A stretch of DNA of 20,005 bases. It comes from a virus. Location of the stretch: positions 1 to 20,005 of IMG/VR virus record IMGVR_UViG_3300005782_000036. The stretch is one strand, 5' to 3'. Positions 2,361 through 15,389 of the stretch are shown piece by piece. Below the pieces are notes generated by a model. It was not told the origin of the DNA. It ran no database searches and was given only the letters and a program-made list of their open reading frames with translations. A program made the position numbers and the translations under genes. Numbering within the stretch: the first letter of the stretch is position 1; each line of letters opens with the position of its first letter.

Positions 2361-3155
2361 TCATTTCACCTCATCTGCTGTCAAAATCCCATGCCGCACT
2401 GTCTGAGAAAACGGGAATCGCTTCATAGCTCCTCCGTCATTTAAATAAAGCGGATCCGTGGCCTCGCTCGTGGGATAGGTCAGCCACCACCAGTTCTTGC
2501 CCTCTGCGCCCGCCTGTGTCCACCACAGGGCTAACAGATCGTATTTTGCATCTGTCAGATTTGCGAATTCCGCCTGCAGTACTCGCCGCTTGAACCTGAA
2601 CACCCATTGAGAGCTCCCGCCAGCGCCGGCTACCATCTCCCCGATCTTCTCCTCCTGGTACGGGTCGAACTCTCCATAAGGCCCGAAAGTGAGCTCGATC
2701 CGTTTGCCGGCCCACAGGTTGAATATCTGAGGTTTCGCGCTCAGGCCCGTGATTCTTATTCTCCAGTATTGCCTGCTCACTGCAATGAACGTGCGCCAGT
2801 AGATCAAGTTATTGCTCAAACCGCTTATCGTAACTACCGTAGTCCAGTCCGTGCCATTGGCCGAATGCTGGAAATAGATCGTGGCCGACCCGCCCTCGAG
2901 GGTGAATCCCTTATCCAGCACAAATGTATCGAGCTCCACTGCTGCTGAAAAAAACCAGGTCACCCGCTGCTCGCTCTCGCCCGCGACTCCTTTCCACAGA
3001 GAGCCCCGATTTCGGTCCGTAAGGAAAGCCAGCGGATAGTTCTCATCCTCGCTCAGGGCATTGCCGCTGCCGTCCGTGAATGAAACCGAATCAGCCTCCT
3101 CGAGCTTATTCTGTGCCAGGATGTGAGGAAATTCGCTCAATTTTTCTCCTGTCAT
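2361..3155 (-). CDS. Tail protein with discoidin-like beta-sandwich, after tape measure
   Basis: Encodes 264 residues and has no signal peptide. The central part (about residues 68-140, from VTWFFSAAVELDTFVLDKG through YWRIRITGL) has the aromatic-rich alternating pattern of a discoidin/carbohydrate-binding-like beta sandwich. The last third is rich in W and Y. It lies directly downstream of the tape measure gene, where siphoviruses place the distal-tail protein or its functional replacement, so a tail-tip adaptor is the best inference. Start choice is open: ATG 3155 lies at the edge of a repeat, while a TTG at 3140 has a well-placed AGGAG five bases upstream, which would shorten the protein by five residues. 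The gene ends in TGATGA. Confidence 0.7.
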   Translation of the reverse strand: MTGEKLSEFPHILAQNKLEEADSVSFTDGSGNALSEDENYPLAFLTDRNRGSLWKGVAGESEQRVTWFFSAAVELDTFVLDKGFTLEGGSATIYFQHSANGTDWTTVVTISGLSNNLIYWRTFIAVSRQYWRIRITGLSAKPQIFNLWAGKRIELTFGPYGEFDPYQEEKIGEMVAGAGGSSQWVFRFKRRVLQAEFANLTDAKYDLLALWWTQAGAEGKNWWWLTYPTSEATDPLYLNDGGAMKRFPFSQTVRHGILTADEVK

Positions 3156-3202
3156 TCCCCTCTATCAAGAGGGGTGCCTGCGTCAGCAGGCGGGGTGTGT
3201 TA
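3156..3202 (+). repeat. Stop-codon-linked palindromic repeat (R4 variant)
   Basis: This repeat fills the whole gap between the tape measure gene and the next tail gene. It has the arm CCCCTCTATCAAGAGGGG, then a small palindrome GCCTGCGTCAGCAGGC, then GGGGTGTGTTA. The final TTA is the stop codon (TAA) of the minus-strand tape measure gene. The left arm CCCCTCTATC and the right arm GGGGTGTGTTA are the same as those flanking the R2 element at 5578. Confidence 0.85.
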
Positions 3203-4855
3203 CCCGCTCGGCAGCGATCCGCTGCGCTGCATCTCGTAAATCCGGTTGCGAAGGACCCGGTCTACTCCGGCGCGTCCGAGCGCAGCATCCAGGCCTCCCT
3301 CGCCGCCCGTATTGATCACCACTACCTGCGGCGCCCCTCCGCCCGATCCGCCCTGGCTGCCATAGCTTGTTCCCCCGTATCCCGCGCCTCCGCCGTAACC
3401 TCCGCCTCCGCTGGGCCGTCCTGCAAAACCGCTCATCGATCCGCCCAGAGCCTGAAGTGCAATCCCCGCGGCAACAGCCCCGCCACCTTTGGCTCCCCAA
3501 GAGAGAGCCATTTCAGCCAGACCGGAAAGCATGTACATCTGTCCCTGGCGGATCGCGATCTGGGCCAGTGCGGAAAGCATGCTGCGTTTCATCGCCTCTG
3601 CCGCCGACATCGAGCCAGAAGCCCACACCTGGAAGAAATTGCTCACTCCCAGGGTCATCATGTCCAGGGAAGCTATTGTGAAATCCGAGTATTCTCGCTG
3701 CTTTTTGGTAATATTTCCTAATACATCTTCAAGCTCCGTCATTTTTTGGATATATGCATCTGCAGCCGCGGTTGGAGGCGCGCCAGGAATTTCCATTCCA
3801 GAAGGCATCGGCGCAGCAGGAGGAGCGATTAATCCAGGAAGGGCTGGTCTCGCCGGTAATTCAAATTCCGGGCGGGCTTCAATTTTTCTTTGCTCGGCAG
3901 CAACTCTACCAGCCAGAATACGAGCCATTGCCAGATTGATTTTACCTGTTTGCCATTCAATTTTTTCGTATTCAAATCTCATTCTCTCCGGCATCATAGT
4001 CCGGGCTACTTTAGCCCATTCCATTGCGATTATTTTTTCATCTACTTTTATGAGCCCGAGAGCAACTGCATCAAGGCGGTTAGCAGTATCGAAAAGTTGT
4101 TCGTTTAGACCTCCGACCCCATATGCGAATGTGGTAATCTCTGTGGCTGCATTTGATACGAGAGGGGCAAATGGCTTAAAACCGGATTCCATCAAATCGC
4201 CTATTGCATTCCACATCTGCTGGATCGCGCCCCCGGTAGTCTGGGTCATCTGCTCTTCCATACCGCTCATACGGATTTCAATCCATCTCAAGGCCGCTTC
4301 GAATTTCTCGCTTTTCGGTATCGCTTCATCAAGGATTATCCCATACCTGCTCAACGTTGACGTATATCCTACAGCCGCCTTGGCCAATAGATCCACAGCC
4401 GTTTCAAGACCGCCGGTTTGAACAGCAAAATCCATCGAGGCTCGCATTACCCGTTCCATCTGATCTTCCTGAATGCCGCCCAGGGTAATCAGCTTGGATA
4501 TCATCGGCAACAGCTGCTCGTCTCCATAGCGGCTGGCTCTCTGAAGGCTCGATGCCAGATCCTGATAATGCTGCGAAAGCTCCGGAGTGTATTTCCCGGC
4601 AGACCGCAGTGATGCCTCAACGCGCATAACTGCGTATTCTTGCGCTATCCAGAGATCCATCGATTTTTTGCCCAGCGCCATTATGGCTGCTAATGCCGCC
4701 ACTCCGGCAATTTTAAGCTTCCCGAAAGATTCCTGTACCTTGTCTACCTGCTTTTCTTCATCCTTGAGCGCCTTGGTCTGTTCCTTTACCTCGCGAGTAA
4801 CGACCTTGCCGTCCTTATATTTGATCTCAAGGATAATTGTTTCTTTATCTGCCAT
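3200..4855 (-). CDS. Tail tape measure protein
   Basis: Encodes 551 residues, mostly helical. After a charged N-terminus that looks like a coiled coil (about residues 10-48), there is a hydrophobic segment IAGVAALAAIMALG. It continues with long amphipathic helices, a P/A-rich linker near residues 340-375, a second hydrophobic alanine-rich part near 440-475 and a glycine-rich tail (GGGGYGGGAGYGG). This layout, and its place directly after the frameshifting tail chaperone pair, identify a tape measure protein. It sets tail length and is ejected with the DNA. At 551 residues it is short; by the usual rule of about 0.15 nm per residue the tail would be near 80 nm. The start overlaps the preceding reading frame by 11 bases. 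Confidence 0.88.
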   Translation of the reverse strand: MADKETIILEIKYKDGKVVTREVKEQTKALKDEEKQVDKVQESFGKLKIAGVAALAAIMALGKKSMDLWIAQEYAVMRVEASLRSAGKYTPELSQHYQDLASSLQRASRYGDEQLLPMISKLITLGGIQEDQMERVMRASMDFAVQTGGLETAVDLLAKAAVGYTSTLSRYGIILDEAIPKSEKFEAALRWIEIRMSGMEEQMTQTTGGAIQQMWNAIGDLMESGFKPFAPLVSNAATEITTFAYGVGGLNEQLFDTANRLDAVALGLIKVDEKIIAMEWAKVARTMMPERMRFEYEKIEWQTGKINLAMARILAGRVAAEQRKIEARPEFELPARPALPGLIAPPAAPMPSGMEIPGAPPTAAADAYIQKMTELEDVLGNITKKQREYSDFTIASLDMMTLGVSNFFQVWASGSMSAAEAMKRSMLSALAQIAIRQGQMYMLSGLAEMALSWGAKGGGAVAAGIALQALGGSMSGFAGRPSGGGGYGGGAGYGGTSYGSQGGSGGGAPQVVVINTGGEGGLDAALGRAGVDRVLRNRIYEMQRSGSLPSG

Positions 4856-5225
4856 CTCTGTGAATCATCTCCCTTTCATGCTGGGACCTGGCTGTCAAAA
4901 AAGCGTGATAGATTTCAAAATCACGCCATGAGATTTCTTTCGGACTCGGCCTGAATGCCTCGATATACGAATTCAAAAAGAAAGCATAAAGCGTCTCTGG
5001 AAATTCAGACTGATATTCGAGATATTTCTTTATCTCGCAGACCTCGCAGGAATCGCAAATCGGGCATCCCTGCGGATCATCGCCATTATACAAAAAGCAC
5101 TTTTTTAGCTTATCCTGCCTGGGATCATCCGCATGCTTGAAAGCCTCGCGAATGTCCCTGATCAGTTTTTTTGGAACCCTTCCTCCAATCTGCCTGCCTG
5201 AGACAGAAGAGCGTCCACTGCCCAC
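4845..5225 (-). CDS. Tail assembly chaperone, frameshift extension (T part)
   Basis: This frame overlaps the end of the 5548-5162 gene and lies in the -1 frame relative to it. Translation probably enters by slippage at 5165-5171, adding 106 residues (LIRDIREAFK... to the end) to the upstream protein and giving a fusion of about 234 residues. Independent initiation is unlikely: the only upstream start is a GTG at 5225 with a poor ribosome site. The arrangement matches lambda G/GT, in which the longer product recruits the tape measure protein. Unusually, the extension has four cysteines in a CxxCxxCxxC pattern (CPICDSCEVC), suggesting a bound metal. It overlaps the tape measure start by 11 bases. 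Confidence 0.78.
   Translation of the reverse strand: MGSGRSSVSGRQIGGRVPKKLIRDIREAFKHADDPRQDKLKKCFLYNGDDPQGCPICDSCEVCEIKKYLEYQSEFPETLYAFFLNSYIEAFRPSPKEISWRDFEIYHAFLTARSQHEREMIHRDGR
5162..5171 (-). promoter_or_regulatory. Programmed -1 ribosomal frameshift site A AAA AAC, then TGA
   Basis: On the minus strand the heptamer A AAA AAC occupies 5171-5165 in the correct phase (X XXY YYZ) for the upstream frame, and the stop TGA follows directly at 5164-5162. Slippage by one base continues into CTG ATC AGG in the downstream frame. I did not identify a convincing downstream stem-loop by eye. Confidence 0.85.
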
Positions 5226-5548
5226 TGCTTATGCTCCAGCGGAACGCGATCCTTCCAATCTTTCACGCCGGTAACATCATATCCCTCGACCTTCTTTATA
5301 CAGGCATCCCACAGGAATTCTGCCGACTCCCCGAGATCGAGAATGATCCTGCGCTCGGCGCCGATTCCCTCGGTCCGGTTCAGCCGCCTCTGGTATTCCT
5401 TCTTGTCTTCTGCAGTAGGCTCGCGGAAAACATGAACCAGCTCATATCTGGCTCCCTCGATTACCACTACTCGCCTGATCTTGATTTCCTCTACTTCCTG
5501 GAGAGAGAAAAGTGGCTTGATCGGAACTACCTTAGAATCTTTACTCAT
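5162..5548 (-). CDS. Tail assembly chaperone, zero-frame product (G part)
   Basis: Encodes 128 residues from ATG 5548, which has AGGAGG seven bases upstream. A TTG at 5554 would add two residues but is worse placed. The protein is soluble and acidic/basic mixed, begins MSKDSKVVPIKP and has no membrane segment. It sits between the tail tube and tape measure genes, the standard place of the G-type tail chaperone. Its last sense codons read CAA AAA AAC and are followed at once by TGA, which makes a textbook -1 slippery site. Sequence alone does not place it in a named family; the call rests on position, size and the frameshift signal. Confidence 0.78.
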   Translation of the reverse strand: MSKDSKVVPIKPLFSLQEVEEIKIRRVVVIEGARYELVHVFREPTAEDKKEYQRRLNRTEGIGAERRIILDLGESAEFLWDACIKKVEGYDVTGVKDWKDRVPLEHKQWAVDALLSQAGRLEEGFQKN

Positions 5549-5565
5549 TTGCAATCCTCCTCTAA

Positions 5566-5618
5566 ATCCCCTCTATCGTAGGGACACGGCGCCGCCGTGT
5601 CCGTACAGGGGTGTGTTA
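5566..5618 (+). repeat. REP-like palindrome, family R2, with shared outer arms
   Basis: The core at 5578-5606 starts GTAGGGACACGG and ends CCGTGTCCGTAC. It is flanked on the left by CCCCTCTATC and on the right by AGGGGTGTGTTA. The final TTA is the stop codon (TAA) of the tail tube gene. It fills nearly all of the gap between the tail tube and tail chaperone genes. Confidence 0.88.
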
Positions 5619-6656
5619 CGTGGCAAAATACTCTGGAATCGTACCCTCAGTGGTCAATATCTTTATCGGGCTGTTCAGTTCCCCTGTCGAATCGTGATGG
5701 CCCTCGATATCCAGCTCGATATGAAGCAGTCCCTCCTCATAGCCGTAGTCCACCCCGTTATAAACTGCTTTCGGTATGGTGATCTCTACCTCGTCATGGT
5801 CCTCTGGCTCCGAGCCGGTGATCAATGCTCCCAGGCACGATACCACTACCGCGGCCTCTGTACCCAACTGCTGCGCAGCCCGGAACGTAGCCAGGTCCGC
5901 AGCCGCTGCCAGAATCCGCAACGATAGGCTCATGTTCCGCTCAGGCGTGTACGGCCAAACTGCAGGATATATCCTGTTCGCCTCCGCGGCCGCTTTCTGC
6001 CAGGCCAGCTCCTCGTTGATCCCTGATTCGAGAGTGAGCTCGAAAGAGCGAAGCTGAGCTCTTATGTCCGAATCGATTTCGAACTTCCCGGCGTAATTAT
6101 ACAGGTAGCGCAATGCGGCTGCATCTGGAAACGTGTAGGCTGTCAGGTCGCCGATCTTGGTTCCTGTCAGGGAAGCCGATGCCTCGAGCCGGTTCCGTCC
6201 CTCCCCGCGGATAGTCAGGCTGCGCACGGCCAGGTCCTGGACGCCGTAATCGTTTGCATCCTCGAGGATCGCCAGGGTGGTCTGGTAAGCCTCCGGCCTG
6301 GTTCCCAGAGGCAGGAATTTTGCCGTGTGCCCGTAAACCTTGCCTGCCTCGATTATCGATTCTGTTTCGTCCGAGAAAAACATGGCGATTAGATAACCTA
6401 AAAAATCCACGGGCAGCGGCTGCATCGGGATCTCGAGCTGAACGAACTGCCTGATCTTGCCCCTCTGAGTCTCCCAGTCATGGCCAGAGCCGACCATTCC
6501 CCGGTCCGTCCAATGCTCGGCATTCTCGTTAATAATGAGCGGATCTGCTAATTTCAGATGTTTGGTCAGATCGGCTTCTTCCACCGGCGTGCCGAAAGCT
6601 GACTGCTTCTTGATCGACCAGGCGATCTCGCTTGCCGATCTCTGTACGATTGCCAT
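5616..6656 (-). CDS. Phage tail tube protein (major tail protein)
   Basis: Encodes 346 residues from ATG 6656, preceded by GTGAGGT. An in-frame upstream ATG at 6689 would start inside a repeat and has no ribosome site, so I rejected it. The protein begins MAIVQRSASEIAWSIKKQSA and has the pattern of long tail tube proteins: an N-terminal stretch with AFGTPVEEADLTKHLKLADP, a central part with LTIRGEGRNRLEASASLTG and a beta-rich C-terminal half ending in EGTIPEYFAT. It follows the tail terminator gene and precedes the chaperone pair, which is the normal place. No sheath gene accompanies it, so the tail is probably non-contractile. The exact Pfam family is uncertain. Confidence 0.78.
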   Translation of the reverse strand: MAIVQRSASEIAWSIKKQSAFGTPVEEADLTKHLKLADPLIINENAEHWTDRGMVGSGHDWETQRGKIRQFVQLEIPMQPLPVDFLGYLIAMFFSDETESIIEAGKVYGHTAKFLPLGTRPEAYQTTLAILEDANDYGVQDLAVRSLTIRGEGRNRLEASASLTGTKIGDLTAYTFPDAAALRYLYNYAGKFEIDSDIRAQLRSFELTLESGINEELAWQKAAAEANRIYPAVWPYTPERNMSLSLRILAAAADLATFRAAQQLGTEAAVVVSCLGALITGSEPEDHDEVEITIPKAVYNGVDYGYEEGLLHIELDIEGHHDSTGELNSPIKILTTEGTIPEYFAT

Positions 6657-6674
6657 TTTTACCTCACTTTTTTT

Positions 6675-6711
6675 AATCCCCCTTATCAAAGGGGGACACA
6701 GGGGGTTGTTA
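6675..6711 (+). repeat. R4 palindromic repeat at gene end
   Basis: Contains CCCCCTTATCAAAGGGGG, a near-perfect hairpin, followed by ACACAGGGGGTTGTTA. The last three bases are the stop codon (TAA) of the gp37-like gene. On the transcribed strand it would form a GC-rich hairpin right after the stop. Confidence 0.88.
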
Positions 6712-7146
6712 CACCTGTTGTCTCACCTGCCAGGTTTCGATTGTCATTGTATAGACTGTTGCGCCTAAAGTGAGCATAAACGAATCCGGAGCGATCCCCA
6801 GAATACTGATCGGCGCCAGGCCGTCGATCCCCAGCCTCTGGCCCATAATTGCATCGCGCACGTCCTCGATCAGAGCATAAGTGGATTCCAGACTGTAGCG
6901 CGCACTGCGGAAATCCTCTGCTGCAAGAGTCAAGCGAAAGGTCAATATCTCCTTGGCTATCGAACCGTCGCTTGCCAGCTCCTCGTGAACCTCGCCGTCC
7001 AGGGCCACCCCGCAAAAAGGAAAGTTGATTATCTCAGCATAGCCGAATCCCGGAAATGATTTGACTGTCCTAGTACTCAAGCTCGATACCTGAGACACTA
7101 TCCTGGAAATCAGCGCGTCCGAAATAGCTTTTATGCTCGATGCCAT
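6709..7146 (-). CDS. gp37-like tail terminator / completion protein (DUF1834-like)
   Basis: Encodes 145 residues and begins MASSIKAISDALISRIVSQV. Size, the alternating beta/alpha pattern and position directly after the gpG-like gene match the Mu gp37 (DUF1834) class, which caps the tail tube at the head-proximal end. The start codon abuts the stop of the upstream gene with no gap, so the two are probably translationally coupled. The family name is inferred from context and overall look rather than from a diagnostic motif. The gene ends exactly in an R4 repeat. Confidence 0.65.
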   Translation of the reverse strand: MASSIKAISDALISRIVSQVSSLSTRTVKSFPGFGYAEIINFPFCGVALDGEVHEELASDGSIAKEILTFRLTLAAEDFRSARYSLESTYALIEDVRDAIMGQRLGIDGLAPISILGIAPDSFMLTLGATVYTMTIETWQVRQQV

Positions 7147-7647
7147 TTAACGGGATCTCCCTGTGCGCAGAAAACGGCCTGCCATGAATTTTATTTTTTT
7201 CAGCAGCTCGGGATCCTGCTTTCTAAGGTTCGTGGCCACCACTATGAATTTTTTCTTTTTGCCGAACAAGCCGAAAACCCCACCCTTTTTCTTGCCTACG
7301 CCGCGGATCTGCAGGAAATAAGCATGCTTTGCCTCGTTCAGAATCCTTATGGCATTCCCAGCACGCTTGTAAACATATCCTCCTTTCAAGGTTCCCTCAT
7401 CGATCAGCTTGCGCGTTCTACCTCGCTTTTTTTTATATTTGATCGTTTTAGCTTCCAGTCCGGGCCAGGGTGCGCCGGGTGGCCCGCCGCCGGAGACGCT
7501 CTGTCCTGCCGCACTGCGGAAATAGCCCTTATGGGTTTTTACAGCCTCCCTGCCAATCGCCTGTAAGGCCTCCCGCGGATTGAGAGCTCGTTTGCCCACC
7601 CCCTCGAGCCGCTTGATCGCCTTGTCAAATCCTTTTGAAGCCGCCAT
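7147..7647 (-). CDS. Phage virion morphogenesis protein (Mu gpG-like)
   Basis: Encodes 166 residues from ATG 7647. It begins MAASKGFDKAIKRLEGVG, is strongly basic and contains the segments GREAVKTHKGYFRSA, GPPGAPWPGLEAKTIKYK and HAYFLQIRG. These are typical of the phage virion morphogenesis (tail S / Mu gpG) family, which completes the tail end before it joins the head. The ribosome site is AGGAG followed by eight bases, and it is the last unit of a 27-copy heptamer array. An open frame continues upstream through the array to 7926, but that part is only RRQESGV-type repeat peptide and is not considered native. Neighbours are the DUF1320 and gp37-like genes, as in Mu-type phages. Confidence 0.85.
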   Translation of the reverse strand: MAASKGFDKAIKRLEGVGKRALNPREALQAIGREAVKTHKGYFRSAAGQSVSGGGPPGAPWPGLEAKTIKYKKKRGRTRKLIDEGTLKGGYVYKRAGNAIRILNEAKHAYFLQIRGVGKKKGGVFGLFGKKKKFIVVATNLRKQDPELLKKIKFMAGRFLRTGRSR

Positions 7648-7652
7648 TTGTC

Positions 7653-7841
7653 TGACTCCTGACTCCTGTCTCCTGTCTCCTGACTCCTGTCTCCTGTCTC
7701 CTGACTCCTGACTCCTGTCTCCTGTCTCCTGACTCCTGTCTCCTGTCTCCTGACTCCTGACTCCTGTTTCCTGACTCCTGACTCCTGTCTCCTGTCTCCT
7801 GACTCCTGACTCCTGTCTCCTGACTCCTGACTCCTGTCTCC
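7653..7841 (-). repeat. Heptanucleotide tandem array, 27 copies
   Basis: On the plus strand there are exactly 27 contiguous 7-base units, each TGACTCC or TGTCTCC, with a single variant TGTTTCC at 765-771 of the 7000s (7765-7771). On the transcribed minus strand each unit reads GGAGTCA or GGAGACA, so AGGAG recurs every 7 bases. The array ends eight bases from the gpG-like start codon and begins about 10 bases from the stop of the DUF1320 gene. All three minus-strand frames are open through it. Similar heptamer arrays (STRR) are known from cyanobacterial chromosomes. Confidence 0.97.
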
Positions 7842-7849
7842 TGATCCCT

Positions 7850-8326
7850 TCACAATTTATCCAATTTCTTCTTCGTGTATTTTCGCGGATCGTCGTCATC
7901 CAGGTCGTCATCCGTGTCCAGGGCATCGGTCCTATACTGGGCTTCCGGCTCTTTCGCCTGGGCTCCGGATGTGTCCAGCCCCAGGCTCAGCTTGCCGTTC
8001 GAGGCTGCCTGGAGTTTGCTCAGGCAGGCCTTGTACTGTGTGAGCCAGTCGTCACTCACTGCCCGCCGGCGAAGGTATAGATAATAGACCGCCATCTGTG
8101 CGCTCAAACGGTTGATCTCATCCGGCACAGGCGAATATGTGCGCAGACTCGGCCAGCGCCCCAGGAGATAGCTGTCGATCTCACCGTCTGCAGAGGCGAT
8201 CACTTCGTTTAATACATCGATTACTTCAGGACTTAAAATAGTAGCCTGATCGCTTTTGCTCGCTAGCTGGACAATTTCATCTTCCTCTGCCCATCGGGTT
8301 AGATCGCTGATTTCGCTGTACGCCAT
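7850..8326 (-). CDS. DUF1320 family head-tail connector (Mu gp36-like)
   Basis: Encodes 158 residues and begins MAYSEISDLTRWAEEDEIVQ. The opening, followed by ADGEIDSYLLGRWP and a later LSAQMAVYYLYLRRR, is the characteristic pattern of DUF1320 proteins such as Mu gp36. These are thought to form the connector ring between portal and tail. The C-terminus is an acidic D-rich stretch followed by a lysine-rich end. The start lies 6 bases after the stop of the exported-protein gene. The stop overlaps a GTG (GTGA at 7850-7853) that could start translation into the heptamer array. Confidence 0.85.
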   Translation of the reverse strand: MAYSEISDLTRWAEEDEIVQLASKSDQATILSPEVIDVLNEVIASADGEIDSYLLGRWPSLRTYSPVPDEINRLSAQMAVYYLYLRRRAVSDDWLTQYKACLSKLQAASNGKLSLGLDTSGAQAKEPEAQYRTDALDTDDDLDDDDPRKYTKKKLDKL

Positions 8327-8332
8327 GTTTGC

Positions 8333-9160
8333 TCACTCGCTCTGAATTATTAAATTCTCTCCCGAGATTGCTACCGTATCCGCCGCAACCAGACCGATCC
8401 TCTCAACCTTCATCCAGGGCATATTGTCAATACCTGTAACTGCCTTATAATTCCAGGTCCCGGCTTCGGTGCTATCGACAGTCCATGTACTGTCCGCCAG
8501 GGTATCCGATGATACGAATGAGGCATAATACCCGGCATGGGATGTTGAGTATAGAGACCTGTATAAAGCCGCTACGGTGTCCGCTGGCTGATATCCGAAT
8601 ACCATGCTCTTGACACCGTAGCCGATCCAGACCGGCTGGCTGCTCAGTGCTCCCGTGCCTGATACGTTTGGACTTGAATACCGTAATCGGAAAACATACT
8701 GGCTCCCCTGCGTGATCTTGGCGCTGGTTATATAAAATTCGTCTCCGGCGGCCATTCCTGAAGAATCGGGTACGATATAAAACAGGCTGTCTGGAACCAG
8801 GCTATTTTTGAGCGCAGCGCTGTCAGGTATCCAGAAGGCAGCATACGAGGCTCCGTAATGCCGCTGGGAATAGACTCTGCCAAAGTAATTGACAGTGTAA
8901 TTATAGGTCACTGTCAGGCCGTCTCGCGCCTCGACAATCACTCTGGCCTGGATCGGTTTATTCATCAATGATTGCTTTGACAGATTCCAGCCGGACCAGT
9001 CCAAAGCGGTTCCGGAGATATTCCTGTCGGTTACTGCAAATGAGGCCACCGGAAACTCGATAGATGCCGGGTTCGTATTCTGAGCTACTCCTGCCAGATA
9101 GCAAAAGCCCAGAATCAAAAACACAACCCCGGCTAACAGGATTAAAAGTCGTTTGAACAT
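8333..9160 (-). CDS. Exported or membrane-anchored protein of unknown function
   Basis: Encodes 275 residues. The N-terminus MFKRLLILLAGVVFLILGF is a short basic stretch followed by a hydrophobic segment, i.e. a signal peptide or signal anchor. The cysteine after LGF is not in a good lipobox, so I do not call a lipoprotein. The remaining 250 residues are rich in S, T, Y and D, look beta-stranded and are nearly cysteine-free, as in envelope or surface proteins. No family is recognised. It is located between the HeH/LEM and DUF1320 genes of the head module, where phages normally carry only cytoplasmic virion proteins. A role at the host surface, such as blocking superinfection, is possible but not shown by the sequence. 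Confidence 0.6.
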   Translation of the reverse strand: MFKRLLILLAGVVFLILGFCYLAGVAQNTNPASIEFPVASFAVTDRNISGTALDWSGWNLSKQSLMNKPIQARVIVEARDGLTVTYNYTVNYFGRVYSQRHYGASYAAFWIPDSAALKNSLVPDSLFYIVPDSSGMAAGDEFYITSAKITQGSQYVFRLRYSSPNVSGTGALSSQPVWIGYGVKSMVFGYQPADTVAALYRSLYSTSHAGYYASFVSSDTLADSTWTVDSTEAGTWNYKAVTGIDNMPWMKVERIGLVAADTVAISGENLIIQSE

Positions 9161-9192
9161 AATATGAACTCCTCGCTGCCTAAGTAGTAATC

Positions 9193-9281
9193 TCCCCCTT
9201 AAAAAAGGGGGACACAGGGGGTTGTCTCGCTCCCCCCTTCTGTAGGGACACGGCGTGCCGTGTCCATGTGGGGGTGTGTCA
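9193..9281 (+). repeat. R4 and R2 palindromic repeats between two genes
   Basis: Two elements lie in tandem: R4 at 9193-9225 (CCCCCTTAAAAAAGGGGG hairpin, ending GGGGGTTGT) and R2 at 9242-9268 (GTAGGGACACGG...CCGTGTCC). GGGGGTGTGTCA follows the R2; its last three bases are the stop codon (TGA) of the HeH/LEM gene. No gene fits in this gap. Confidence 0.88.
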
Positions 9282-9563
9282 TTCCCCTCTCTTCTCCAGC
9301 TCTTCCTGGATCAACACGGCCCTCTCCCGGTTGTTTTTCGCACCGGAAATATCAACCTCGAGCTCGGCGGCCCTGGCCTCCAGCTCAGCCCTGTTCATCT
9401 TGCCGGGCCTCTTTTTCTCCGCCTGTTTTTCCTCTGCGACCGAGATGGTTTTGCAAAGTCCCCGCTCGACCCCGCTCTCGACCAGCTCGTCCGGGATATT
9501 CACGATTGAGCCTACAGGCTTTTCAAAGGCCGCGATCCATGGTTTTAGCAGTTTGACTTTCAT
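9279..9563 (-). CDS. HeH/LEM-domain virion-associated protein (Mu gp35-like)
   Basis: Encodes 94 residues from ATG 9563, which has AAAGGAGA just upstream. An in-frame ATG at 9647 lies in repeat sequence and is rejected. The N-terminal half (MKVKLLKPWIAAFEKPVGSI...) is followed by a charged linker (EEKQAEKKRPG) and a C-terminal helix-extended-helix motif, MNRAELEARAAELEVDISGA and onward. This organisation occurs in small proteins encoded next to the capsid gene in Mu-like phages (gp35 class). Its role in the virion is not established; it may help assembly at the head vertex. Confidence 0.68.
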   Translation of the reverse strand: MKVKLLKPWIAAFEKPVGSIVNIPDELVESGVERGLCKTISVAEEKQAEKKRPGKMNRAELEARAAELEVDISGAKNNRERAVLIQEELEKRGE

Positions 9564-9586
9564 TGTTTCTCCTTTCGTTTTATTCC

Positions 9587-9739
9587 CCTTCTGTAGGGGC
9601 GCCCGGCTGGACGCCCCTACAACGAATGTCATTCCCCGTAGGGACACAGCGTGCCGTGTCCGCCTTCTGTAGGGGCGTCCGGCTGGACGCCCCTACAATG
9701 AATGTCATTCCCCGTAGGGACACGGCGCCGCCGTGTCCG
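9587..9739 (+). repeat. Tandem R3-R2-R3-R2 palindrome cluster (76-base period)
   Basis: Four hairpins fill the gap after the capsid gene: R3 at 9593-9620, R2 at 9638-9661, R3 at 9669-9696 and R2 at 9714-9738. R3 reads GTAGGGGCG(C/T)CCGGCTGG then ACGCCCCTAC. The two R3-R2 pairs are offset by exactly 76 bases. The two R2 cores differ (AGCGTG versus GGCGCCG) and the two R3 cores differ by one base, so the copies have diverged. Confidence 0.9.
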
Positions 9740-9751
9740 CAAGGGTTGTTA

Positions 9752-10705
9752 TCACGCATAAGCGGTCGTGATCAGGTAGCCGCAGCCCACGTCCACGACT
9801 TTCTCGGTCTGCTCGATCAGGCCCTCGATCACCGTGGCGTGACCCCTGTTATTCCGGTAGCGGTACATGGCAATATCCAGCGCTCCGGCTATCGGCCTGC
9901 GGAACTGGTAGGCCAACGAAAGCGATCTCTTGCTCGGAGCTCCCTTTTCCACATAAGCCACGAGTACGCTGTTGTCATCCCACAGAAAATCAAGGCTCTG
10001 GGCAGCCACTCCTGCAGCAGCCTCGTCAAACAGCGCTGTCGGGATCATCACCTCGAGCCCGAAAATCTTGGGCGGCAGATCGCCGTTGACCAGCAGGGTC
10101 GAATCAGTATGTACGACCAGGTCGCGGATCTTGCTGTCTTTCTTGGCAGCCACTGCGATATGAGGCGGAATGACTATCGTGTTCGGCTCGACTCCTGCCT
10201 TCTTGCGCACGTTCAGCTTGGCAACATCGATATCGTCCTCGATCTTTACCCCGCTCGCCGCGTTCCAGGCAGCCGTGGCCGCACCGTTTTCGGTGATATA
10301 AGTCGCGCTCATCAGCTTGCCCACGATCCGCACCTCGATCCCGAGCCTGAGCTTGCGCGTGACCAGGGCCGCCGAGTCCCGCTCCGGATTGATCACGGCT
10401 AAGTCGGCATTGTCTATTTCCTCGTCGGGGATCAGCTCACACAGGCCGTGCTGCTGGCACGCGTATGTCTCCGAGCTGTACGCGCGCTTGATCTCGTTGG
10501 AGGGTGTTGCCGGAGCGCGGATCGAGTCGTAATCATCCCTCAATCCCGCGACATTGGAGAACACATAATACTTGCCGGTTGTGGTCGGGACTCTCACCAC
10601 CGGGCAGAGCCGGTCGGCAATGAACGGCCCGCCGAGACGCATGTCCTCCATTGCGAACTGGGTCAGGACCGTGTTCAGATTCTGGGTTGAATATCTGTCA
10701 GCCAT
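9752..10705 (-). CDS. Major capsid protein
   Basis: Encodes 317 residues, starting MADRYSTQNLNTVLTQFAME with a consensus AGGAGA ribosome site. Length, lack of export signals, the pattern of an N-terminal arm followed by mixed alpha/beta sequence (YVFSNVAGLRDDYDS, FGLEVMIPTALFDEA, FLWDDNSVLVAYVEKG) and position after the protease/scaffold and decoration genes identify the HK97-fold capsid subunit, equivalent to Mu gpT. The C-terminal part (SLAYQFRRPIAGALDIAMYR) resembles capsid proteins of uncultured siphoviruses. It ends with tandem stops TGA TAA that run into a repeat. It shares a 38-base leader with the upstream decoration-like gene. Confidence 0.85.
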   Translation of the reverse strand: MADRYSTQNLNTVLTQFAMEDMRLGGPFIADRLCPVVRVPTTTGKYYVFSNVAGLRDDYDSIRAPATPSNEIKRAYSSETYACQQHGLCELIPDEEIDNADLAVINPERDSAALVTRKLRLGIEVRIVGKLMSATYITENGAATAAWNAASGVKIEDDIDVAKLNVRKKAGVEPNTIVIPPHIAVAAKKDSKIRDLVVHTDSTLLVNGDLPPKIFGLEVMIPTALFDEAAAGVAAQSLDFLWDDNSVLVAYVEKGAPSKRSLSLAYQFRRPIAGALDIAMYRYRNNRGHATVIEGLIEQTEKVVDVGCGYLITTAYA

Positions 10706-10738
10706 TTTTATCTCCTGGTAGTCAAATCAATTTCGTAA
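10701..10738 (-). promoter_or_regulatory. Duplicated translation leader, capsid copy
   Basis: The 38 bases from the start codon region upstream (with the ribosome site AGGAGATAAAAATG) match 36 of 38 bases of 11256-11293, which precedes the decoration-like gene. The two differences are adjacent to the ribosome site. Confidence 0.85.
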
Positions 10739-10740
10739 TT

Positions 10741-10852
10741 TCCCCCTTACCAAAGAGGGACACAGGGAGTTGTATTCCCCATTCCGTAGGGACACGGCGC
10801 CGCCGTGTCCGTGTGTCTGTCTCCCTCTTGCCAAAGGGGGATATAGGGAGTT
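10741..10852 (+). repeat. R4-R2-R4 repeat cluster
   Basis: R4 at 10741-10773 (CCCCCTTACCAAAGAGGG...GGGAGTTGT), R2 at 10786-10810 (GTAGGGACACGGCGCCG...) and a second, more degenerate R4 at 10822-10852 together fill the gap between the decoration-like gene and the capsid gene. No open frame of interest is present. Confidence 0.85.
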
Positions 10853-10861
10853 CTCCCCGGC

Positions 10862-11260
10862 TCAGCCTGCGGCTTTCGCCACGGGGATATCCATGACAAA
10901 CACAGAGATCAATTGACCTGCAGCACTTGAGGCCATCTTGGCCTTGCCGATGATTTTCTGCGAAGCAGAATACATCGTTGCCGCACCATCTACCCGACCA
11001 GTGCTCGAACAGACCAGATAAAGCCCCTCAGTGATTGCATTGTCATGGGCCAGAGCAAGGCAAGTGCTACCCGGCCCTGCCACGCGACATTCTTTGCCGG
11101 CATAACCGATTTCCGTTGTAATGCCCTCTCCATCCTCACCCGCGCCCGCTGCCACCAGCACAGAGCTGGAGAGCTTTACATAAGTGCCTTTGGGGATCTC
11201 TGTGTCCCCGACCACGTAAGTATCTACGTTGACAAAATTATTTCTCAATTTAAGAGCCAT
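10862..11260 (-). CDS. Capsid decoration / cement-like protein (DUF2190-like)
   Basis: Encodes 132 residues, beginning MALKLRNNFVNVDTYVVGDT. It has a repeated beta pattern with small residues (IPKGTYVKLSSSVLVAAGAG, ALAHDNAITEGLYLVCSS, KIIGKAKMASSAAGQLISVF) and no membrane segment. Small beta proteins of this type (DUF2190, cement or decoration proteins) are encoded directly upstream of the major capsid gene in Mu-type head modules, and they coat the expanded shell. The family assignment rests on size, pattern and position, not on a unique motif. AGGAGA precedes the ATG in a leader almost identical to that of the capsid gene. Confidence 0.62.
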   Translation of the reverse strand: MALKLRNNFVNVDTYVVGDTEIPKGTYVKLSSSVLVAAGAGEDGEGITTEIGYAGKECRVAGPGSTCLALAHDNAITEGLYLVCSSTGRVDGAATMYSASQKIIGKAKMASSAAGQLISVFVMDIPVAKAAG

Positions 11261-11293
11261 TTTTATCTCCTGGTTATCAAATCAATTTCGTAA
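11256..11293 (-). promoter_or_regulatory. Duplicated translation leader, decoration-gene copy
   Basis: This copy holds the ATG and AGGAGA of the decoration-like gene and matches the capsid gene leader at 10701-10738 in 36 of 38 bases. It ends at a repeat cluster, as does the other copy. Confidence 0.85.
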
Positions 11294-11300
11294 CAATTTC

Positions 11301-11365
11301 GTAGGGACACAGGGCAGGGCTCGTTAGCGAATGCGTCACGAGCAGGGATGTGGCCGCCGTGTCCG
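11301..11365 (+). repeat. Composite R2 element with a second palindrome in its loop
   Basis: The R2 5' half GTAGGGACAC (11301-11310) and 3' half GCCGCCGTGTCC (about 11354-11363) are separated by some 43 bases. That insert carries its own inverted repeat GCTCGT (11319-11324) / ACGAGC (11338-11343). It looks like one repeat inserted in the loop of another. Confidence 0.7.
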
Positions 11366-11375
11366 CAGGGGATTT

Positions 11376-11498
11376 ATTCCCCTCTATCGTAGGGGCGGTT
11401 CGCGAACCGCCCGTACAGAAATTTCTCTTTCCCTTTATCAAAGGGGGCCTGAGGGGGATTTCCCCTCCCCCTTAAAAAAGGGGGATACAGGGGGTTGT
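11376..11498 (+). repeat. R1-R4-R4 repeat cluster downstream of protease gene
   Basis: R1 at 11389-11416 is preceded by the shared left arm CCCCTCTATC. Two R4 copies follow, at 11430-11461 (GGGGGCCTGAGGGGGATT form) and 11466-11498 (CCCCCTTAAAAAAGGGGG...GGGGGTTGT). The last ends 7 bases from the stop codon of the protease/scaffold gene. Confidence 0.88.
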
Positions 11499-11505
11499 CC
11501 TTGCC

Positions 11506-12111
11506 TCAGGCAGCCACCTGGGCCCTGATCCTTACCGAGGCCTCGGAGAACGAAAGCTTCTCGTTGCCGGGTACCTCCATCAGGTCGTAGCAGGCCGCGG
11601 TGTGCTTGTCGTCCTCGGTTTCCTCGCCGCCCCTCATCTTGATCACCCTCTTCAGGGCAGCCCTTTCACTGGCCATGCGGCCTGTGAGCTGGATATTCTG
11701 GCCAGGAGCCGAATGCTCGCCGAGCAGGCCGTTGTCCTTGCGCTCGGCCACTTCCTCGAGGATCGCCTTGCGGCCCTCGGTGTCCAGGCGCTCGCCGAGC
11801 TTGGTATAGCCTGAGCCCTCGGCAGGAGTGAGCCGGCTCTCTTTCTTGGCCTGCTCGATTTTCTCCTTGAACTCGGACAGCTCGGCAGCTTTCTGCGTCT
11901 CGGCCAGCTTGGCCTCGGCCTCGTTCGCCCGCTTCTTTTCAGCCTCGAGCGAAGTGTTCAGCTCAGCCGTCTTGGATTCGGACTCGGAGAGCCGGGCCTC
12001 GGCCTGCTTCAACTTCTCGGAGAGCTCTGTCTTTTCAGCAGAGCCGAAAAAACTCTTGAGTGTATCCGTGACACTCGCGGTTACGCTTTTGGTGATTGTC
12101 GCCTCGTCCAT
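11506..12111 (-). CDS. Internal-start scaffold protein (Mu gpZ / lambda Nu3-like)
   Basis: Within the protease gene, codon 182 is an ATG (12111-12109) preceded by AAGGAGGAG at an ideal distance, in the same frame. Translation from here gives a 201-residue protein, MDEATITKSVTASVTDTLKS and onward, consisting only of the coiled-coil scaffold part. This is the same arrangement as Mu Z inside I and lambda Nu3 inside C, where the scaffold is made in excess of the protease. The ribosome site is stronger than those of most genes in the window. Confidence 0.85.
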   Translation of the reverse strand: MDEATITKSVTASVTDTLKSFFGSAEKTELSEKLKQAEARLSESESKTAELNTSLEAEKKRANEAEAKLAETQKAAELSEFKEKIEQAKKESRLTPAEGSGYTKLGERLDTEGRKAILEEVAERKDNGLLGEHSAPGQNIQLTGRMASERAALKRVIKMRGGEETEDDKHTAACYDLMEVPGNEKLSFSEASVRIRAQVAA

Positions 12112-12654
12112 GGTTGTCTCCTCCTTTTTTTCGGACGATTCCTTCTCCCCATTATTAAAGGGGGACAAAGGGGGTTGTTCTTCCCCGGCCGGTTCTATCC
12201 AGACGAATGAATTAGAGGCGCCGCCATGAAACAAATGGGGCACCGGGTCCAGGCCTTTAGCCGCGGGGGGCGCCGCTCCCAGAAATGAGAGCGCAGTCAA
12301 ATAGACCCTGCCTGTTGAAATGTGCGGCATATCCATTGCTACTGAGCGGCTGCGATAGGCCCCTGATTTGAGCCATTCTCGCAGTTGATCGCTGACCTTG
12401 GTCAGCTTTGCCTGGAGCTTGTCGCCTGCCACGCGCAGCTCGGAGACCCAGCCTAAGGCAGGGCCGAATCCCCAATGATCCGTATCTATCGGGGCCTCCT
12501 GGAGCTTGGGTGAATAATCGGCAGCCATGTCTTTCAGATCCTGCTGAGTGATCTTAATTATACTCGGCTTGCCGCCTTTCGAGCCTTCCCATTCACCGAC
12601 GCGCGTTATATCGAACCAGCCCTGGTCTATATGATAATCAGTTATTTCGTCCAT
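11506..12654 (-). CDS. Mu I-like capsid protease fused to scaffold
   Basis: Encodes 382 residues. The N-terminal part (about 1-155) is the Mu I-type prohead protease: it has APIDTDHWGFGPALGWVSEL near residue 55 with His60, GAYRSRSVAMDMP near 98-110 with a candidate catalytic serine, and ALSFLGAAPPAAKGLDPVPH near 121. A linker of about 30 residues follows. The C-terminal part (from about 182) is a charged, E/K/A-rich coiled coil (about 200-285), as in scaffold proteins. The protease cleaves scaffold and capsid subunits during head maturation. Residues 159-170 (EQPPLSPFNNGE) are encoded by an R4 repeat. AGGAG six bases before ATG 12654 supports the start. Confidence 0.9.
   Translation of the reverse strand: MDEITDYHIDQGWFDITRVGEWEGSKGGKPSIIKITQQDLKDMAADYSPKLQEAPIDTDHWGFGPALGWVSELRVAGDKLQAKLTKVSDQLREWLKSGAYRSRSVAMDMPHISTGRVYLTALSFLGAAPPAAKGLDPVPHLFHGGASNSFVWIEPAGEEQPPLSPFNNGEKESSEKKEETTMDEATITKSVTASVTDTLKSFFGSAEKTELSEKLKQAEARLSESESKTAELNTSLEAEKKRANEAEAKLAETQKAAELSEFKEKIEQAKKESRLTPAEGSGYTKLGERLDTEGRKAILEEVAERKDNGLLGEHSAPGQNIQLTGRMASERAALKRVIKMRGGEETEDDKHTAACYDLMEVPGNEKLSFSEASVRIRAQVAA
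12146..12178 (+). repeat. R4 repeat inside the protease/scaffold gene
   Basis: CCCCATTATTAAAGGGGG followed by ACAAAGGGGGTTGT matches R4 with a few changes. It lies in frame in the linker between protease and scaffold and encodes QPPLSPFNNGE. The surrounding domains are intact. Confidence 0.88.
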
Positions 12655-12669
12655 ATTATCTCCTGCATT

Positions 12670-13743
12670 TTAAAAACGCCGTGTCCGCACTTTGTAGGGG
12701 CGGTTCGCGAACCGCCCATATTCATTCATCCCTGCAGGAAAATTTATCTCCTGCATGATTGTGCTATAAAGCAACTCTGCGCTCATCAATTCAGCCGGCG
12801 GCATATCAAATCCTTTGGCTGGCTGTACATCCGGATAATCAGTATCCGGCTTGATTTTCTCTGTCTCTACATCGAGCACTGAGACCTCGATCACTTCACA
12901 GCGGCATCGATGATGAAGCGGTGGATAATAAACATCCCAGAAATCGTCATCCCGCGAATAAACCTGTCCGTCCAGAGGTCCGCAGATATCGCATACAGCC
13001 TCGTCTCCTACTGTTACAAACTGAAGGTACGGGTAAAATTGTCTCAGTCCCTCTGTATCCCGCTGAAGCTCGCTCCACCTGGCTGCGTTGGCTGCCGAAT
13101 GGATATTGGTCAGCAGCGTTGTTTCCAGGTGGTACGGGTTTGCCCTGGTAACTCCCAGGGCGCCCCATGCTTCTTTCGCTGCCTTTAAAAATTCTCCCCT
13201 GGTCAGGTCTCCCTTGATCGCATCATCGACCAGGCCCTTGACCGAGCGCACGAGCAACTCATTTTCAGTGTTCGCTATTGTAAACGCCGCTGCATGAGTT
13301 CTTTTAGCCACGGCTGCGAACTCCGACTTTGTCATCGGAATCTTGTTCTTGAACCACCTCCAGGATTCACCTGCAGAGCCGATCGGGGCCTCTGTCCAGT
13401 CAGTATATTTCAGCCTGGCTGCCTGAGCTGTCAGGCCCTTGATTTCTTTCTTTTCAGCCCACTGGAAATATCCCCTCTGGTGAGCGTCGCGCCATGTCAG
13501 CGCCCGCCCGATCATCTTGCTGCTCAAAAGCACCCCGCTGACATGCTCCACCACGCGTTTCGGCACTACCGGGTTCCAGAAATTCTCTATCCAGTTCAGG
13601 CTCTCAGCTCCGACAATCGCTTTCTCGTGGCTGGCCAGCCAATCGTTCCACAGCCGGATCGCCTCTGCCCGCGACTTCCCGTAATGCCGGCCTAATATCT
13701 TTTCCCTGCGCTTGGCTAACTGTTTCCGGCCCTTTTTCCTCAC
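12670..13743 (-). CDS. Mu F-like minor head morphogenesis protein
   Basis: Encodes 357 residues. The C-terminal half holds the Phage_Mu_F domain: HSAANAARWSELQRD near 215, then CDICGPLDGQVY (Cys251, Cys254) and YYPPLHHRCRCEVIEV (His277, His278, Cys280, Cys282), a probable metal site. This is the SPP1 gp7/Mu gp30 class, which sits at or near the portal and is needed for head assembly. The start is GTG 13743, overlapping the portal stop as GTGA, so the two genes are coupled. The last 16 residues (from Tyr342, YGRFANRPYKVRTRRF) are encoded by repeat sequence, so the native C-terminus has been replaced or extended. Confidence 0.92.
   Translation of the reverse strand: MRKKGRKQLAKRREKILGRHYGKSRAEAIRLWNDWLASHEKAIVGAESLNWIENFWNPVVPKRVVEHVSGVLLSSKMIGRALTWRDAHQRGYFQWAEKKEIKGLTAQAARLKYTDWTEAPIGSAGESWRWFKNKIPMTKSEFAAVAKRTHAAAFTIANTENELLVRSVKGLVDDAIKGDLTRGEFLKAAKEAWGALGVTRANPYHLETTLLTNIHSAANAARWSELQRDTEGLRQFYPYLQFVTVGDEAVCDICGPLDGQVYSRDDDFWDVYYPPLHHRCRCEVIEVSVLDVETEKIKPDTDYPDVQPAKGFDMPPAELMSAELLYSTIMQEINFPAGMNEYGRFANRPYKVRTRRF
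12676..12720 (+). repeat. R2 remnant plus R1 palindrome inside the F-like gene
   Basis: GCCGTGTCCGCAC (half of an R2 element) is followed by an R1 copy at 12694-12720 (GTAGGGGCGGTTCGCG...). Both lie in frame in the 3' end of the F-like gene and encode its last 16 residues. Confidence 0.88.
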
Positions 13744-15071
13744 AGACCACTGGCCTCCTCCTGTTTCTTGATCTCATCCAGGTCCTCTTCCCCTGCCTCC
13801 ATCTCCGGGAACCTTACCGCCGGCATCTTTTTCCCAGCTAAAGGAATATCGTCATCCGCCGGCGCCGGCATCCCGACCTGCTCGCGCAGCCAGTCCTCGC
13901 CCACAGGCAGGGCGAGTTCGTTGACCGCCACCGAAATCCCGCGCAGATAGGCCTGGATATCTTTCTCCTCTTCGAACGGGATCCGGAACCTGGGATACAT
14001 GCCCCGGTCCTGTGCTCCGAAATTTATATCCACTAGCCTGACAATCACCTCATCGAGCTGCTCCTGGTTCCAGCGTGAATCCTCCTCGCAGATATGCTGC
14101 TGCTGCTTGCTCTGGAACTTGGCCAGGGCATGCGTGCCTGCCTCGCTTTCCGTGCTCAGGGTCTGGCCCAGGATCGCCTTTGCATACTGGCGGTCCACAT
14201 ATTCCTCGATCAGGAAACGGAACAATTGGACCACGCCGGAATGCTTCATGTCCAGGACTTTGAAATCCGTACCCTCCGGCCCGATCCCGACCGAGTTTGC
14301 GATCATCTGCTTGAGGACCTCCAGCAATGCGTTCTGTTCGTCTTTCGAGATCCCGCGCGGGTAATTGGCCCACAGGAACGGCGCGCCGAACCTTTCGATA
14401 AATCTTACCAGCTCCTTGATTCCGTTCGACTTGAAAAACCACAGCGGATATAGCTCCCTTAACAGTCCTTCTCCATAGGGCGTTTCATCTGAGCCCCAGG
14501 TGTTGCTCAGGAAATTCATCTGCGGCAACTCTTTTTTACCCAGTCCTCCTGAGCCAGTCAGAACCAGCTCGCTCTTCTCATCGAAACGGAAACGCTCCGG
14601 ATCGCGGGTCTTGAATTCCTGGATACCGTAATAGCCGTCCGGCCTCAGCTTGTAGATTATCTCCACCGGGAGAAAGCCGTAAGCAATGGCTCGAAAAAAC
14701 CGGCTCCGCGATAGATGAAATCCTTTAATGTCCGCAAATATATCGCTGATAAATTTCGCCATGCCCGCTTCATCATCCGGATCGTCAGGCCCCGGATTTA
14801 TATTATAGCCCTGGGCCATGACTATATTGGCTCGCATCCGTAAACACATCGCAAGCTGCGTATCCTTGCGCAGCATCGTGCCGTATAGCTTATAGCCCTC
14901 AGTGGAATGATCCTCGAGGGTTTTATCCGATACTGTCTGCAATCCGCCGAAAAGAAGGCCCAGCGCCCTGTCAGCCAGCGGACTCGATAGCTCTTTGCCG
15001 ACATGTATCTTTACTGTCGGCCTGCCGCCGGGCCTGCGCCGCGGCCTAGTGCGATTTGTATCTTTTGCCAT
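13740..15071 (-). CDS. Portal protein, DUF935 family (Mu gp29-like)
   Basis: Encodes 443 residues, starting MAKDTNRTRPRRRPGGRPTV after a GAGGG ribosome site. DUF935 marks include MRANIVMAQGY (about 79-89), FFRAIAYGFLPVEIIY (125-140), DETPYGEGLLRELYPLWFFK (195-214), ERFGAPFLWANYPRG (226-240) and LGQTLSTESEAGTHALAKFQ (301-320). These fit a full-length Mu-type portal. It forms the dodecameric ring through which the terminase pumps DNA and to which the connector attaches. The C-terminus is acidic. Overlap GTGA with the F-like gene suggests coupled translation, and 16 bases separate it from the upstream CCGHG gene. Confidence 0.94.
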   Translation of the reverse strand: MAKDTNRTRPRRRPGGRPTVKIHVGKELSSPLADRALGLLFGGLQTVSDKTLEDHSTEGYKLYGTMLRKDTQLAMCLRMRANIVMAQGYNINPGPDDPDDEAGMAKFISDIFADIKGFHLSRSRFFRAIAYGFLPVEIIYKLRPDGYYGIQEFKTRDPERFRFDEKSELVLTGSGGLGKKELPQMNFLSNTWGSDETPYGEGLLRELYPLWFFKSNGIKELVRFIERFGAPFLWANYPRGISKDEQNALLEVLKQMIANSVGIGPEGTDFKVLDMKHSGVVQLFRFLIEEYVDRQYAKAILGQTLSTESEAGTHALAKFQSKQQQHICEEDSRWNQEQLDEVIVRLVDINFGAQDRGMYPRFRIPFEEEKDIQAYLRGISVAVNELALPVGEDWLREQVGMPAPADDDIPLAGKKMPAVRFPEMEAGEEDLDEIKKQEEASGL

Positions 15072-15087
15072 TTACCCTCAAATTATT

Positions 15088-15375
15088 TTATTTATAAGGC
15101 CCTAAAATCTCGGCGTTACTTGCATAAGCTTTGTAATAGAGTTTTGCAGATGGTAGAATCAAAATCATTCTCCCATCTTGTAATTCAATCTGTCCAGACA
15201 TTCTCCCATGCCCGCAACAACTTCCTCGCATATCTATTCCGCCCTCCTGCAAAGCTCTCACTATCGGAGCAATGCATGAATCTATTCCCATTTCCCGCCA
15301 TTTCTCTTTTCCAGGCGAACTAAGATCAGCTGGGATTTTAACTTTTACTGGAGTAAAATTTCCTGGTTTACACAT
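15088..15375 (-). CDS. Small phage protein with CCGHG motif, function unknown
   Basis: Encodes 95 residues. The core IDSCIAPIVRALQEGG, then GSCCGHGRMSGQIELQDGR, is a recurring pattern in small phage proteins I recognise from many phage and prophage genomes, but no function has been assigned. The paired cysteines and histidine could bind metal. No membrane segment is present. It lies between terL (14 bases away) and the portal gene (16 bases away), in the packaging module, so a link to packaging or early head assembly is possible. The ribosome site is weak, which suggests coupled translation. Confidence 0.72.
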   Translation of the reverse strand: MCKPGNFTPVKVKIPADLSSPGKEKWREMGIDSCIAPIVRALQEGGIDMRGSCCGHGRMSGQIELQDGRMILILPSAKLYYKAYASNAEILGPYK

Positions 15376-15389
15376 TCGATTATTTTATT

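Follow-up and report, generated by a model that had tools for sequence, protein, structure and literature searches.

What is the role of a long tandem array of heptanucleotides placed between two virion genes of a phage? The question is raised by a viral DNA stretch of 20,005 nucleotides (positions 1 to 20,005 of IMG/VR record IMGVR_UViG_3300005782_000036; hereafter, the window). In this window, the gap between a Mu gp36-like head-tail adaptor gene and a neck or tail-completion-like gene is wholly occupied by heptamers, from the stop codon of the first gene up to 6 bases short of the ATG of the second. A preliminary description had proposed that slippage in this array might act as a frame switch. 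The data presented below suggest instead that it is probably a host-type heptamer spacer expanded by slippage, whose last unit was co-opted as Shine-Dalgarno (SD) site, rather than a genetic switch.

Structure of the array

Read in mRNA sense on the minus strand, the locus has the order TGA / AGGGATC / 27 x AGGAG(A/T)C / AGACAA / ATG (Table 1). The TGA stop codon of the adaptor gene lies at 7852-7850 and the array begins directly after it. AGGAG is present in 26 of the 27 units, always in mRNA sense, the remaining unit being AGGAAAC. Tandem Repeats Finder (TRF) reported 27.6 copies with 90% matches in the window, and a three-core pattern matched 25 times as compared with 0 matches in 100 dinucleotide shuffles, well above chance for a tandem 7-nt unit. 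The 27-copy array with a core every 7 bases, as first described, is therefore real. Its copy number is nevertheless provisional, owing to the metagenomic origin of the assembly and to a 67-bp exact repeat within the array. Unit blocks recur in the array, with a unit match of 0.85 at a lag of 7 units, and both features are compatible with slippage or with an unequal exchange of blocks of units.

The final AGGAG core lies 8 nt from the ATG of the neck-like gene, which is a good SD spacing, and the earlier proposal that this unit serves as ribosome site of the downstream gene appears likely on that ground. AGGAG leaders of a similar type precede many other genes of the window. A G-quadruplex was also considered and dropped: the units hold GG pairs only, and four runs of at least three G were not found in the array.

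The heptamer family in the presumed host lineage

Relatives of the phage were reached through its capsid protein. Profile matches of this protein included 'Candidatus Glassbacteria', a Gemmatimonadales metagenome-assembled genome and all six genomes examined of the Glassbacteria class, and these relatives make a member of this class, within Gemmatimonadota, the likely host. Neither a CRISPR-type spacer nor a prophage junction linking the phage to a host was found.

The distribution of the heptamer was analysed in the six class genomes (G001-G004, G006 and G008) and in 194 other genomes of the phylum. The pattern (AGGAGNC)x3 was present in four of the former and in five of the latter (Fisher p=2.8e-5, post hoc and on a small sample). 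The pattern AGRAGWC had several matches each in G002, G003, G006 and G008, mostly intergenic, and none in G001 and G004. These chromosomal arrays reach approximately 18 period-7 units, vary between A and T at position 6, as does the phage array, and come after stop codons rather than ahead of starts. Judging from its units, the phage array appears to belong to the repeat family AGRAGWC that the host lineage itself carries.

The class genomes were also of interest for their capsid genes. Each of the six (L132-L144) contains one full-length relative of the window capsid gene in a syntenic Mu-like head and tail cluster (2361-17123 in the window), and G006 and G004 share the upstream chromosomal flank of this cluster (PALP enzyme, PTS EIIA and others). 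The cluster terminase belongs to PHROG 38, whereas that of the window is of the gpA/Mu type (PHROG 675). The chromosomal cluster looks like a vertically kept element, either gene-transfer-agent-like or domesticated.

Placement and length of related arrays

A scan of viral contigs for AGGAGWC x3 recovered 62 stretches, which, together with the host loci, gave 123 non-redundant arrays. Genes around them were called with a coding-score script of our own, arrays being masked. An earlier placement test with simple longest open reading frame (ORF) calls, in which no orientation bias appeared, was discarded because wrong-strand genes had been called in GC-rich contigs. On the 5' side, the gene that ended at the array, or continued into it, had the orientation of AGGAG in 60 cases and the antisense one in 2 (33 after a clear stop). 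On the start side, within 25 nt, 13 sense and 12 antisense starts were counted, that is, without any sense preference. This absence of sense bias at starts, combined with the bias at stops, speaks against the family, taken as a whole, being a ribosome-site device.

Unrelated viral contigs (L078 twice, L091 and L028) also have stop-to-start gaps filled by an array that ends in an SD-like unit, and the configuration of the window is therefore not unique. Other family members mostly have 3-5 units and at most 17. Among near-identical contigs from different metagenomes, copy number was equal for every common array, all of these having 3-8 units only. An apparent difference of 5 versus 8 units between L024 and L027 turned out to be an effect of where the pattern was cut, the aligned gaps being equal.

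Some contigs had a repeat organization of their own. L024, L027 and L077 carry inverted pairs of heptamer arrays (AGGAGNC, then GNCTCCT) in most intergenic gaps, identical across metagenomes, and the 6.7-kb contig L025 has arrays of several heptamers (GGGGATA, CACTGAC/CACTACC and AGGAGWC).

The homologous gap in related phages

The viral relative L021/L031 (IMGVR 3300031553_000049) has the same gene order as the window, with an adaptor 64% identical and a neck gene 50-53% identical. Its neck protein start aligns with the same methionine as the window gene, and no heptamer array stands in front of it: the homologous gap holds instead a 68-bp palindromic repeat of the GTAGGGGC type, flush with the stop codon (L021:6477-6545). 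The adaptor and the gene after it are found in L030 and in six chromosomal relatives, without array and without neck gene, the gap being about 120-275 nt long. The presence of heptamers thus varies at homologous sites (absent in L021, L030 and the six chromosomal clusters), and since array and neck gene are missing or replaced in relatives, neither is fixed in this type of phage. A further contig, L029, shares 7,373 bases with the window at 99.8% identity and stops short of the array.

At that junction (L029:7373, window 9768), the DNA becomes abruptly unrelated from the end of the capsid gene onward, which can reflect recombination or an assembly chimera. Palindromic repeats of the forms GTAGGGGC...GCCCCTAC and GTAGGGAC also occupy several gaps of the window (9587-9740, and at 2321, 11389, 12694 and 19940), GTAGGGGC being counted 8 times in the window and 19 times in L031.

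Interpretation and alternative explanations

The preferred explanation, a spacer grown from a host-type heptamer, would involve the following. Simple-sequence heptamer repeats of the family AG(R)AG(W)C are dispersed between genes in chromosomes of the likely host lineage, and the phage array would be one member of this family. Within the phage it would have grown by slippage during replication, or by unequal exchange of blocks of units, in the space separating the adaptor from the neck-like gene, where growth met little constraint and which it now fills from stop codon to SD. Its last unit would act as the ordinary SD site of the neck-like gene, and the other 26 would be mainly spacer, their addition being presumably close to neutral. 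Several points weigh against this explanation. The array core is of the same style as the SD sites of the phage itself (CAGGAGATAAAAATG ahead of the major capsid protein and cement genes), and the array could have grown from a local SD instead of having a host origin. Two of the six class members (G001 and G004) are without arrays. With 28 units, the window array exceeds all others found (next 17), so that something may maintain it. Moreover, the placement data depend on gene calls from our own script, and slippage was deduced from one assembled record.

The frame switch first proposed would work by slippage of one or two units, joining a GTG that overlaps the adaptor stop to the neck-like gene and adding a repeat peptide of 64-71 residues as alternative N-terminus. 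Its arithmetic is correct: the distance from the GTG at 7853 to the ATG is 206 nt, out of frame by two, and one more unit (213 nt, 71 codons) or two fewer (192 nt, 64 codons) would restore the frame, with about 70 residues gained. It is equally true that all sense frames of the array are open, but this is nearly automatic and uninformative: because 7 and 3 are coprime, the same seven codons occur in all three frames of the heptamer, and none of them is a stop in the sense strand. The preliminary description had missed that an open frame already leads through the array into the downstream gene from an ATG at 7926, within the adaptor gene; this ATG being in frame at the present copy number, there is no off state. 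The neck-like gene has its own ATG and SD, which are independent of copy number and available in all states, so no change of frame can switch it on or off, and the adaptor is unaffected as well since its stop precedes the array. The GTG lacks a recognisable SD, the L021 homologue begins at the same methionine without any heptamer repeat, and near-identical pairs of other AGGAG-family arrays displayed no copy-number variants. Copy number could therefore alter which upstream frame is joined, not whether the neck-like gene is read; judged from the sequence alone, no switching of a gene or frame by copy number, as expected of a phase-variable locus, was found. The array would matter more as a switch, if it were one, but the evidence does not favour this, and we give the idea hardly any credence.

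The abundance of AGGAG cores can also be read as a leader for ribosome loading. The 26 extra cores would then raise initiation as standby or sliding sites, or lower it as decoys, and copy number would tune the dose of the neck-like protein. Their common mRNA sense, the ideal spacing of the last one and the nearly open centroid fold of the array RNA, with scattered 3-bp hairpins only, are consistent with this, and heptamer number is known to change expression of hmw1A/hmw2A in Haemophilus, though through the promoter (PMC2651432). Relatives, however, express the neighbouring genes without an array, host-lineage arrays follow stop codons and do not precede starts, and starts near family arrays are evenly split between the two orientations. 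An effect of copy number on the translation rate of the neck-like gene is possible, but ribosome loading seems unlikely to account for the array. It is quite improbable that the phage recruited the host heptamer as an expandable loading array, in which slippage in the number of AGGAG cores tunes the amount of neck/tail-completion protein. In a further reading, the transcript is an RNA decoy that could titrate a regulator binding GGA, for example CsrA, or bring the gene under its control. CsrB-type RNAs present CAGGA-type repeats in loops. In the centroid fold of the array, unlike neighbours pair into mini-hairpins (GAC-AGGA-GUC or GUC-AGGA-GAC) whose loop contains GGA, the minimum free energy is below that of shuffles (z -2.7), and CsrA is encoded in all four class genomes tested (G001, G002, G003 and G008). 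Yet unlike units do not alternate more often than expected (15 alternations, p=0.48) and G048, which has the most array matches in the phylum sample, is without a CsrA match, making a decoy very improbable. Finally, a real array, shorter or longer, might have been mis-sized or mis-joined during assembly, as could be feared from a metagenome virus contig with a 67-bp exact internal repeat; but the A/T variants make the unit order unique over most of the array and both flanking genes stand in the order expected from relatives, which reduces this to a very slight chance.

Comparison with known heptamer arrays

The comparison with known heptamer repeats drawn in the preliminary description was apt. 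The placement of AGGAGWC matches that of the heptamers GGGAATC / GGGGA(C/T)T of Xanthomonas and Nostoc. The unit of the Calothrix short tandemly repeated repetitive (STRR) sequences differs from AGGAGWC. The STRR (cited in PMC4692102) are, like the window array, short tandemly repeated heptanucleotides, in their case in a bacterial genome. In Xanthomonas and Nostoc, lengths differ between relatives and reach 26 units, the authors considered phase variation unlikely, and GGGAATC-type heptamers have the same placement bias as the AGGAGWC family (PMC4692102). In contrast to these systems, the window array has GG pairs only and no strong G-quadruplex, resides in a phage and ends in an SD that looks used; other AGGAGWC members are mostly of 3-5 units.

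TAACTGA direct repeats of Beggiatoaceae, Cyanobacteria and Bacteroidetes have a patchy distribution and up to 43 copies; like the window array, they are intergenic heptamer direct repeats and, in one genome, lie mostly directly upstream of start codons (PMC4679880). They differ in that TAACTGA includes a stop codon and lacks an SD, while the sense strand of AGGAGWC is open and has an SD core. In Haemophilus influenzae, 13-38 TGAAAGA heptamers stand upstream of hmw1A/hmw2A, and their variable copy number modulates expression via the promoter (PMC2651432, citing Dawid 1999). The shared trait is a heptamer array upstream of a gene; the hmw arrays belong to a surface adhesin promoter with documented copy-number variation and effect on expression, whereas the window array is known from sequence only. 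A literature search for the exact unit returned only unrelated matches such as primers.

The window array is thus a further case of the known heptamer arrays near genes, unusual in its length and SD core. A heptamer family of an uncultured bacterial class extends to a related phage, where it lies between structural genes, and several unrelated viral contigs have stop-to-start gaps filled by such arrays. These arrays give examples, phage-sized and manipulable, with which to ask why bacteria have an over-representation of heptamers and why these follow stop codons.

Flanking genes and other repeats of the window

The term 'gpG-like' used earlier for the downstream gene is weak: its sole family matches are PHROG tail completion/Neck1 (E=3e-4) and Pfam Phage_tail_S (E=0.1). 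Read from ATG 7647, the protein has 166 aa. A blastn comparison of the adaptor and neck-like gene pair with annotated phages gave no match, and neither a second copy of the neck-like gene nor a second record of the locus was found in viral contigs.

Table 1. Coordinates of the array and of neighbouring features in the window
Feature	Position	Strand	Basis or remark
Neck / tail-completion-like gene, ATG 7647	7147..7647	-	L021 homologue with same Met; PHROG 222 E=3e-4
Spacer AGACAA	7653-7648	-	Separates final heptamer from ATG 7647
Final AGGAG core, likely SD site	7656..7660	-	Ends 8 nt before ATG; sequence
27 tandem heptamers AGGAG(A/T)C	7654..7842	-	Order ATTATTAATTxTTAATAATTAATAATT (x = AGGAAAC)
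Degenerate first unit AGGGATC	7843..7849	-	Flush with adaptor stop codon; sequence
Mu gp36-like head-tail adaptor gene	7850..8326	-	Pfam PF07030 E=2.5e-20; PHROG 195 E=1.2e-19; ORF call
GTG overlapping adaptor stop, proposed alternative start	7851..7853	-	Out of frame by 2; without recognisable SD
ATG inside adaptor gene	7924..7926	-	In frame with downstream gene through array at present copy number; ORF 7147-7926

Other repeated sequences were noticed in the window. A 39-bp leader with CAGGAGATAAAAATG is common to the capsid and cement-like genes (10700-10738 and 11255-11293, 95% identical), and A/T-rich tandem repeats of 47 and 94 bp occupy positions 1989-2180.
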